A stretch of 36,729 nucleotides of DNA from Oscillospiraceae bacterium (GTDB taxonomy: Bacteria > Bacillota > Clostridia > Oscillospirales > CAG-272). A program made the translations under genes and the position numbers. The notes beneath the pieces were generated by a model. The model made no database searches. It was given only the letters and a program-made list of their open reading frames with translations, and was not told where the DNA came from. Where the stretch lies: contig SVTX01000018.1 in NCBI GenBank assembly GCA_015063545.1, positions 1 to 36,729 on the forward strand, given 5' to 3'. Positions 891-12,618 of the stretch are shown here, in pieces; positions within the stretch are counted from its first letter, which is position 1, and every line of letters begins with the position of its first letter.

Positions 891-919
891 TTGACAAAAC
901 AGATAAAAAGTGGTATAAT
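891..919 (+). promoter_or_regulatory. Consensus sigma-A promoter of the structured RNA
   Basis: TTGACA (891-896), a 17-base spacer and TATAAT (914-919) are full consensus. Transcription is expected at about G926, which is the first base of the long hairpin described next. Confidence 0.9.
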
Positions 920-925
920 GTACGT

Positions 926-1077
926 GCTACACAAACTGCATATTTTTCTCTCAGTAATGGGAAAATACTTTGGTAAAAAGTGTTTTCTCTCTTTTCTCAT
1001 ACCATTACTGAGAGTTTGTGTAGCAACATTCGAGGGGAACATTTTTTCGGTGCATTCCTTCGGGAGTGCACTTTTTT
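926..1077 (+). ncRNA. Structured RNA or leader of the SLOG-like gene
   Basis: Starting at the predicted transcription start, GCTACACAAA (926-935) pairs with TTTGTGTAGC (1015-1024). CTCTCAGTAATGG (948-960) pairs with CCATTACTGAGAG (1002-1014). Inside, GAAAATACTTT (961-971) pairs with AAAGTGTTTTC (977-987), one wobble, around loop GGTAA. An unpaired segment (938-947) interrupts the 5' side. A purine-rich linker (CGAGGGGAAC, 1031-1040) precedes an intrinsic terminator at 1050-1077. The product is a discrete RNA of about 150 nt, or a terminated leader for the gene at 1102. AAAAAGTG (975-982) could alternatively pair with CACTTTTT (1069-1076) of the terminator. I do not recognise a known riboswitch, 6S, SRP or tmRNA signature. 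Confidence 0.6.
1050..1077 (+). terminator. UUCG-loop intrinsic terminator
   Basis: A 9-bp stem GTGCATTCC/GGAGTGCAC (one wobble) closes on a TTCG tetraloop (1059-1062). Six T follow at 1072-1077. It stands 24 bases before the ATG at 1102, so it could act as an attenuator or simply end the upstream RNA. Confidence 0.85.
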
Positions 1078-1101
1078 ATTTTGAATTTTGGAGTGTTATT
1101 T

Positions 1102-1557
1102 ATGATTATTACATTTTGTGGGCACTCACAATATACAGAAACGATAGAAGACGAGCAAAAAATTATATCCTTTTTAAAGGAGTTAGTAGGAGACCAACAT
1201 GCTGAGCTCTATTTAGGCGGTTATGGTTCTTTTGATGCCTTTGCCCGAAAATGTGGGAGAAAATATCAAGAGACTCACCCAAACACCAAATTAATTTTCA
1301 TTACTCCGTATATCACCGTAGAGTATCAAAAAAATTATTTGGATTACAACAAGGATTTGTATGATGAAATTCTTTACCCTAACTTGGAAGATAAACCCCT
1401 GAAATTTGCAATTTCATACAGAAACAAGTGGATGGTTGAACAAGCTGATTATGTAATCGCATATATAACTCGCGATTATGGAGGGGCTTATCAAACATAT
1501 AAATATGCAAAGAAAAAGAAAAAATATATATTAAATCTTACAGGCAAGCAACTTTAA
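1102..1557 (+). CDS. SLOG/DUF1273-like nucleotide-binding protein
   Basis: This 151-residue protein begins MIITFCGHS. It has the alternating beta/alpha layout of the SLOG (Smf/DprA-LOG) Rossmann-like superfamily: an N-terminal strand, the glycine-rich LGGYGSFDAFA segment near residue 40, the strand LIFITPYI, and a late segment MVEQADYVIAYITRDYGGAY with bound-nucleotide-type glycines. Members bind nucleotides or NAD-related ligands. The substrate here is unknown. The chosen ATG follows GGAG (1090-1093) by eight bases; an upstream in-frame ATG at 1066 lies inside the terminator and is unlikely to be used. The preceding structured RNA and terminator make regulated read-through plausible. The gene stands alone, next to an integration scar. 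Confidence 0.7.
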   Translation: MIITFCGHSQYTETIEDEQKIISFLKELVGDQHAELYLGGYGSFDAFARKCGRKYQETHPNTKLIFITPYITVEYQKNYLDYNKDLYDEILYPNLEDKPLKFAISYRNKWMVEQADYVIAYITRDYGGAYQTYKYAKKKKKYILNLTGKQL

Positions 1558-12027: not shown

Positions 12028-12618
12028 ATGAGAACATCAAATATTGTAAGAAATACAACAGAAACACAGATTGACCTTACACTTGCAATACTTTCGCAGG
12101 ACGATGCCGGCAGCTTTACCGGTACTACGAATATTGGATTTATGGATCACATGATGAATGCATTCTGTGTACACGGTCATTTCAGAATCGACCTTAAAAT
12201 GACGGGAGATCTTGAGGTTGACGACCATCACTCTGTAGAAGATCTCGGTATAGTGCTCGGACAGGCATTTGCGCAGGCTGTAGGTTCAAAATCAAGTATA
12301 AACCGTTTCGGTTGCTCGTATGTTCCTATGGACGATTCCCTGTCAAGATGTGTTATTGATATATCGGGACGGCCTTATCTTGTTTACAGTGCTCTTTACG
12401 ATTATCAGATGATCGGTGAGCTTGAGTCAGCTATCATTCGTGAATTTTTCTATGCGTTCGCTATGAATGCGGGAGTTACTCTCCACATAGAGAATTTTTA
12501 CGGCGAGAATGACCACCACAAGGCGGAATCTATATTTAAAGCATTTGCAAGAGCGCTTTCCGATGCATCAACACTTCGAGAAGGTGATATTCTCTCCACT
12601 AAAGGAACTCTCGGATAA
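12028..12618 (+). CDS. hisB: Imidazoleglycerol-phosphate dehydratase HisB, monofunctional
   Basis: This Mn-dependent dehydratase turns imidazole glycerol phosphate into imidazole acetol phosphate. At 196 residues it is the dehydratase alone, without the N-terminal histidinol-phosphatase of enterobacterial HisB. The metal-binding repeats are visible: GFMDHMMNAF, DDHHSVEDLG near residue 65 and NDHHKAESIFKAFARAL near the C-terminus. The dehydratase signature MDDSLSRCVIDISGRPYL is present. Its stop and the hisH start share one base (TAATG). Confidence 0.96.
   Translation: MRTSNIVRNTTETQIDLTLAILSQDDAGSFTGTTNIGFMDHMMNAFCVHGHFRIDLKMTGDLEVDDHHSVEDLGIVLGQAFAQAVGSKSSINRFGCSYVPMDDSLSRCVIDISGRPYLVYSALYDYQMIGELESAIIREFFYAFAMNAGVTLHIENFYGENDHHKAESIFKAFARALSDASTLREGDILSTKGTLG

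Follow-up and report, generated by a model that had tools for sequence, protein, structure and literature searches.

A promoter-linked structured RNA of Clostridia, probably a transcription attenuator, precedes SLOG and other accessory genes

Why should a short, highly structured RNA with its own promoter and its own intrinsic terminator stand directly in front of a protein-coding gene? The question arises on contig SVTX01000018.1 of an Oscillospiraceae bacterium (assembly GCA_015063545.1), of which positions 1 to 36,729 were analyzed as a whole; we call this stretch the window. A sequence-only reading had described a full-consensus promoter, an outer, an inner, and an apical stem, and a UUCG terminator ahead of a SLOG gene, and had left it at either a stable small RNA or a terminated leader that controls this one gene. 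The features of the window copy are as follows.

891-919, + strand: promoter, with TTGACA at 891-896, a 17-nt spacer, and a TG-extended TATAAT at 914-919
926-1077, + strand: the RNA, with the SLOG gene following from 1102
926-936, + strand: 5' strand of helix P1, partner 1014-1024; putative transcript start at about 926
940-942, + strand: conserved AUA in the P1/P2 bulge, for which no pairing partner was found
949-960, + strand: 5' strand of helix P2, partner 1002-1013; hypervariable in sequence, paired within its own copy
961-971, + strand: strand A0, the 5' arm of the apical hairpin P3 (961-971/977-987 by folding)
970-973, + strand: UUGG in the P3 loop region, highly conserved
975-988, + strand: strand A, a candidate partner of A0 (P3) or of strand C (pseudoknot)
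1002-1013, + strand: 3' strand of P2, partner 949-960
1014-1024, + strand: 3' strand of P1, partner 926-936
1034-1047, + strand: strand C, a candidate partner of A (pseudoknot) or of the terminator 5' arm (antiterminator)
1049-1077, + strand: intrinsic terminator, with stem 1050-1058/1063-1071, a UUCG loop, and a U tail; the hairpin spans 1049-1072
1090-1093, + strand: Shine-Dalgarno-like GGAG of the gene behind the RNA, read from the sequence
1102-1557, + strand: gene for a standalone, YpsA-like SLOG protein of 151 aa, with its ATG 24 bases past the end of the T tail at 1077

The individual elements bore up well. The promoter boxes match the consensus at 12 of 12 letters, with TG preceding the -10 box, and the UUCG terminator does lie 24 bases ahead of the SLOG start codon. 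Perfect inverted repeats (925-937/1013-1025 and 948-960/1002-1014) underlie the stems, and folding of 926-1080 gave P1, P2, and P3 at -60.2 kcal/mol, compared with a mean of -28.0 (sd 3.1) for shuffled sequences (z -10.35; 0 of 200 as good). The protein encoded behind the RNA matches phrog_289 (E = 9.4e-7) and Pfam YpsA PF06908 at E = 5.4e-4 with 20.4 bits, which does not reach the curated cut-off of 27.7.

Positions 721-880 of the window, immediately ahead of the promoter, carry letters resembling a tRNA 3' end (GGTTCGATTCCCGTTGGGGGTGCCA), along with inverted partners at 764-792/798-826 and a repeat at 865-878. A tRNA at 721-780 was considered and set aside, as ARAGORN finds none in the window; this region is possibly an old integration site.

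We compared the window with known RNA families. Rfam 15 gives no match in the window at the gathering threshold, in line with the earlier impression that no known riboswitch class could be recognized, and the 12 weak matches at E <= 10 (best E 0.034) all lie far below their gathering scores. No 6S RNA model match occurs in the window at the gathering score or at E <= 10. In 20 loci carrying other members of the family, the only Rfam matches were Clostridiales-1, Gut-1, and two tRNAs, each at other positions. Clostridiales-1 (RF01699, 142.7 bits) lies at 12294-12461 of locus L172, a viral contig that also carries the new RNA, and Gut-1 (RF01706) lies elsewhere on locus L187, which likewise bears a copy. 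Both, like the new RNA, are structured and come from gut Clostridia or gut samples, but their occurrence at other places on shared loci argues that the families are distinct. Kinship with Clostridiales-1 was considered and rejected, the L172 copy differing in sequence and fold. A 2017 study reportedly presents a set of 224 candidate RNAs. By "new" we mean without an Rfam 15 match and not met in the literature searched; the RNA could be one of the unnamed candidates of such surveys, for example the 3161 of PMC8040213.

Searches of related genomes revealed that the window copy is one of many. BLAST of the locus returned three copies in its own genome and matches in 46 of 146 family genomes, and a profile search of 50 loci plus the window yielded 55 members at E < 1e-6. 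In the window's own genome, a covariance model built from 36 sequences (R1) found 13 copies at E <= 1.3e-4, a number that rises to 16 places when the cut-off is relaxed to E <= 0.05. The model also matched 118 of 196 family genomes and 83 of 245 order genomes at E <= 1e-3, as well as 73 of 291 class genomes at E <= 1e-5. At E <= 1e-5 a draw from the phylum gave 1 of 249, which is the window's own genome; this draw held a few other genomes of the class, and none of these matched. Because these matches are confined to Clostridia, the RNA looks limited to that class among the genomes sampled. The whole-genome searches scored 10-15 candidates per genome, so copy numbers are lower bounds.

A pattern scan of named genomes added at least 117 stretches, and the model confirms 77 of the 80 matches listed; the other three are L089 (Streptococcus), L093 (a cyanobacterium), and L110 (Oscillospiraceae). 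The 77 confirmed among the matches listed carry titles such as Clostridia, Oscillospiraceae, and Ruminococcus, with one "uncultured bacterium", and many of them were obtained from the gut of ruminants, deer, or rabbits. The pattern also occurs in 15 viral contigs, and the model confirms all 15. In phage and plasmid records, blastn of 926-1077 gave no match at E <= 1e-3. Some copies stand in tandem; at locus L120 a single gene is preceded by three of them, which have diverged to 50-76% identity and each have their own promoter and terminator.

Comparison of the copies shows what the sequence-only reading had no means of seeing: the promoter is conserved as part of the unit. Among 143 distinct copies with a recognizable P1 start and 60 nt of upstream sequence, 116 have at least five of the six TATAAT letters ending exactly 6 nt ahead of P1, against 27 at the next best gap; breaking ties towards the 6-nt gap would raise the count to 127/143, and 116/143 is the count free of that bias. 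Where a copy has a single best -10 box (102 copies), the gap is 6 nt in 89. The TG extension is present in 127/143 and the 17-nt spacer in 119/143, while the -35 box is less strictly kept (5 or 6 of 6 letters in 82/143). Given this fixed spacing, P1 likely begins at the first transcribed base. To our knowledge, riboswitches are not usually locked to their promoter at a fixed spacing.

We then asked which helices are maintained across the family. Six predicted helices are supported by swap tests, covariation, or both: P1, P2, P3, a long-range pseudoknot, the antiterminator, and the terminator. In 36 aligned members, 13 of the 19 pairs of P1 and the terminator are changed on both sides. With 109 members (107 distinct), these pairs form in 98.4% of cells and 15 of 19 are changed on both sides, whereas slid controls drop to 26-58%. 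Taken separately, the seven pairs of the outer helix P1 form in 99.3% of cells (6/7 changed on both sides), and the nine pairs of the terminator in 99.6% (6/9). The alignment model behind these counts (A6) contained the P1 and terminator pairs, so their counts lean that way; P2, P3, the pseudoknot, and the antiterminator were absent from it.

For these four helices, each strand was paired either with its own partner or with that of another member, using the 107 distinct members and 5000 permutations; related members are not independent, and the permutation counts are accordingly not probabilities. P2 scored -20.7 kcal/mol with its own partner and -8.6 when swapped, P3 (A0 with A) -12.4 and -8.0, the pseudoknot (A with C) -15.9 and -11.3, and the antiterminator (C with the terminator 5' arm) -14.3 and -10.3, with 0/5000 permutations as good in every case. 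Two control pairings, predicted not to form, showed a slight signal or none (A with the terminator 5' arm, 270/5000; A0 with C, 2941/5000). A strand-swap test on all 55 members of the profile search, with about five wrongly cut pseudoknot rows kept in, likewise supports the pairing of A with C. The arms of P2 are only 0.53 and 0.56 identical in 260 related pairs, compared with 0.78 for the whole RNA.

The pseudoknot signal depends on the type of RNA. Within type A (67 members) the swap effect is weak (own -16.0, swapped -15.4; 3/5000) because the partner strands are nearly identical there, and it is strong among the 40 remaining members (0/5000). In the alignment, its columns are 83.4% paired and 9 of 14 pairs are changed on both sides. 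On four of the five measures the column counts lie above every one of the 500 shuffles, and on the fifth 8/500 reach them. Cells changed on both sides number 43, and one-column slides score higher on this measure (50 and 54), whereas the other measures beat all slides; the types carry indels in this region.

These comparisons bear directly on an alternative pairing that the sequence-only reading had proposed for 975-982 (AAAAAGTG). That an alternative pairing exists is borne out, but not with the partner it had named, 1069-1076 in the terminator tail: own partners score -7.95 and swapped ones -8.18, with 4825/5000 permutations at least as good (n = 107), and in the 40 rows outside type A the count is 2848/5000. 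The supported partner of 975-988 is instead 1034-1047. The conservation and covariation of the stems in relatives, which had been named as a check, were found, and the search for a known family had come back empty.

Taken together, five strands form a chain of pairings, A0 with A (P3), A with C (pseudoknot), C with the terminator 5' arm T5 (antiterminator), and T5 with the 3' arm T3 (terminator), so that every inner strand has a choice of two partners. Since P3, the pseudoknot, the antiterminator, and the terminator share strands, neighbors in this chain are mutually exclusive. The unit thus has an intrinsic terminator between promoter and gene together with an evolutionarily conserved, mutually exclusive antiterminator, and we think it probable, from the pattern of base-pair changes, that it acts in cis as a self-sufficient transcription attenuator and represents a new, riboswitch-like RNA class.

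In the mechanism that we propose, transcription would start at the first base of P1. P1 and P2 would clamp the sensor, the apical hairpin P3 (A0 with A) would form next, and strand C would then emerge. If P3 held, C would be free to pair with the terminator 5' arm, and the resulting antiterminator would permit read-through, leaving the gene behind ON. If C instead took A from P3, forming a pseudoknot across P1/P2, the terminator would form and transcription would stop (OFF). P3 with the antiterminator would thus be the ON state, and the pseudoknot with the terminator the OFF state. Rough energy sums over 109 members are -22.6 for ON and -32.1 for OFF; because they favor OFF with the pseudoknot penalty omitted, the default state is uncertain. 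With P3 made first, folding speed, and not a ligand alone, could influence the outcome.

Which state a signal favors, and what that signal is, we can only infer. Across 109 aligned members, AUA (940-942) is kept at 95-96% at each position and UUGG (970-973) at 94-99%. The apex conserves UUGG together with AAAA, and the AAAA is explained by the pseudoknot. In the window copy, the UU of UUGG belongs to the P3 stem. As the helices found leave both AUA and UUGG unexplained, these would be the best candidates for a putative binding site. A small molecule bound near them would be the likeliest signal, at roughly even chances in our judgment, with a protein less so.

We next turned to the genes that the RNA precedes. 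In 80/143 copies, a start codon with an SD-like sequence, opening a frame of at least 45 codons, lies 10-39 nt past the RNA, compared with 2/143 in a control on the opposite strand upstream. These distances argue for a cis leader rather than a small RNA, so that of the two original options the leader is favored. In a pooled set with a looser SD rule, an ORF lies at 10-39 nt in 102/171 copies and elsewhere within 300 nt in 54/171; none was found within 300 nt for 15/171, two of which are at most 90 nt from the end of the analyzed stretch. In the window's own genome, a gene follows at 16-29 nt in 13 of 13 copies: six SLOG genes (one cut by a contig end), three genes for cysteine-rich small proteins, three for lipoproteins that by eye are of a single kind, and one for a GIY-YIG protein. 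The original focus on a single SLOG gene was accordingly too narrow, as the same module precedes many unrelated genes.

The own-genome SLOG genes that carry the RNA lie on contigs C33, C45, C54, C28 (two), C30, and C53. The copy at C28:662 was recognized by eye only; model R1 did not report one copy on that contig that can be seen by eye ahead of a SLOG gene. The RNA is absent ahead of the SLOG genes on C17, C21 (at 8340), and C23. Another SLOG gene, at C21:50018, begins at the contig end, and its first 20 residues are identical to those of the C53 fragment, so that the two pieces may be one gene. Contig C4 of this genome holds, at 362-565 (locus L227), what is left of a YpsA-like SLOG gene, interrupted by one stop codon. 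On contig C45 (locus L004, 1-360), a unit of about 120 bp is repeated in tandem (period by eye) ahead of a RelB/RelE-like gene pair (names by eye) and the second SLOG copy of the RNA.

Of the proteins encoded near the RNA, 92 of 113 were scanned; 21 that were truncated, near-duplicate, or of doubtful frame were left out, and some starts were re-set to ATG. Ten are SLOG proteins by reading, with 10 matches to phrog_289, 7 to Pfam YAcAr, and 4 to Pfam YpsA. At least 19 belong by motif to the cysteine-rich group. Zinc-ribbon, HipB-like HTH, PASTA-like, and lipobox proteins also occur, as does a PD-Lambda-1 defence homologue. A cysteine-rich family of about 50-100 aa (GNGEQGFECCCDECDYYLLCFPEFD) is exemplified by L003 1293-1481; the two such proteins that were compared with Pfam had no match. 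At the same locus, a 241-aa gene has its 3' end duplicated (1160-1290 and 1928-2070, by eye) beside the unit of RNA and cysteine-rich gene, as if this unit had been inserted there. Standing with its promoter ahead of SLOG, cysteine-rich, lipoprotein, regulator, and defence-like genes, the module would define one regulon per genome.

Several other explanations have to be weighed against a ligand-set attenuator. The switch could be set by a protein, with an antitermination or RNA-binding factor holding P3 or the pseudoknot; the conserved AUA and UUGG could then be protein contacts, and the heterogeneity of the downstream genes would fit. No candidate factor is known, however, and the gene behind the window copy encodes a SLOG protein, not a recognized RNA binder, so that we hold this version to be possible, with the balance tilted against it. 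A stable small RNA acting in trans, its placement before genes being incidental, would account for a dedicated promoter and a strong terminator, and for tandem copies that leave little room for a gene between them, as in the diverged array at L120. The placement of start codons, in 80/143 against 2/143 and in 13/13 copies of the window's own genome, argues the other way, and the antiterminator pairing would have no obvious use, which makes this reading unlikely. Still less probable is an explanation at the level of DNA, either a mobile element or a recombination site (cruciform, att-like), with the fold as a by-product. Many copies ahead of unrelated genes, tandem arrays, and the 15 viral contigs would suit it, but the fixed promoter spacing, the intrinsic terminator, and the mutually exclusive pairings all point to selection on RNA, as do the many G-U pairs (for example, U-G in 75/107 at one terminator pair).

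Two further readings can be set beside these. In T-box-like sensing, the UGGY of the P3 loop would bind the NCCA end of an uncharged tRNA and hold the ON state, and both the UUGGU or UUGGC found in 91/109 aligned members and the nearly constant AUA of the bulge would agree with it. T-box leaders share with the new RNA a choice between terminator and antiterminator and a conserved UGG, yet in the new RNA the UGG is not kept in five own-genome copies (C56, C14, C28, C30, and C53), whose apex reads UGAUAAAA instead. No T-box is among the 12 Rfam matches in the window at E <= 10, and no Stem I or specifier architecture was seen; we consider tRNA sensing very improbable. Ribosome-mediated attenuation through a leader peptide we would credit least. 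An ATG-started frame of at least six codons does occur in 44/109 members, but P1 starts at the inferred transcript start, and an SD-preceded upstream ORF of at least six codons (ATG, GTG, or TTG) is present in only 11/109, which makes ribosome stalling unlikely.

The ligand-responsive attenuator that we favor has parallels among known systems. Fluoride, ZTP, and preQ1 riboswitches are transcription-attenuating, pseudoknotted aptamers, and they resemble the new RNA as 5' leaders with a choice between pseudoknot, antiterminator, and terminator and a gene directly behind; the new RNA differs in having no Rfam match, a fixed promoter spacing, and downstream genes without an evident common pathway. 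Riboswitches of the c-di-GMP/GEMM type occur in many copies per genome before unrelated genes, often extracellular or lipoprotein ones, a multicopy, broad regulon similar to that of the new RNA, which has no Rfam hit. In type III toxin-antitoxin systems, a promoter, the ToxI RNA, a terminator, and the toxin gene follow one another. The new RNA shares this order, but the genes behind it are of many families, no family of direct repeats resembling the tandem short repeats of ToxI occurs within 926-1077 of the window, and no ToxN-type toxin is among the 25 commonest families per list for the 92 downstream proteins.

What the arrangement achieves can be proposed tentatively. The roughly 190-bp promoter-sensor-terminator unit might be a portable cassette, placed ahead of unrelated accessory genes across Clostridia. 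SLOG nucleotide-sensor, small cysteine-rich, lipoprotein, and defence-like genes would then all answer to a single signal sensed by the RNA, perhaps a nucleotide-derived messenger to which SLOG proteins bind as well; we rate this idea as speculative. The analysis brings to light a widespread orphan RNA switch of gut bacteria outside Rfam 15, the decision mechanism of which appears legible from the evolution of its base pairs. The set of genes it would regulate is unusual, consisting of accessory genes that share no single pathway and including two kinds of standalone SLOG proteins. Identifying the signal would give a handle on the RNA and on the genes downstream of it, and the promoter-locked design suggests a route by which unrelated, newly acquired genes may be placed under one control.
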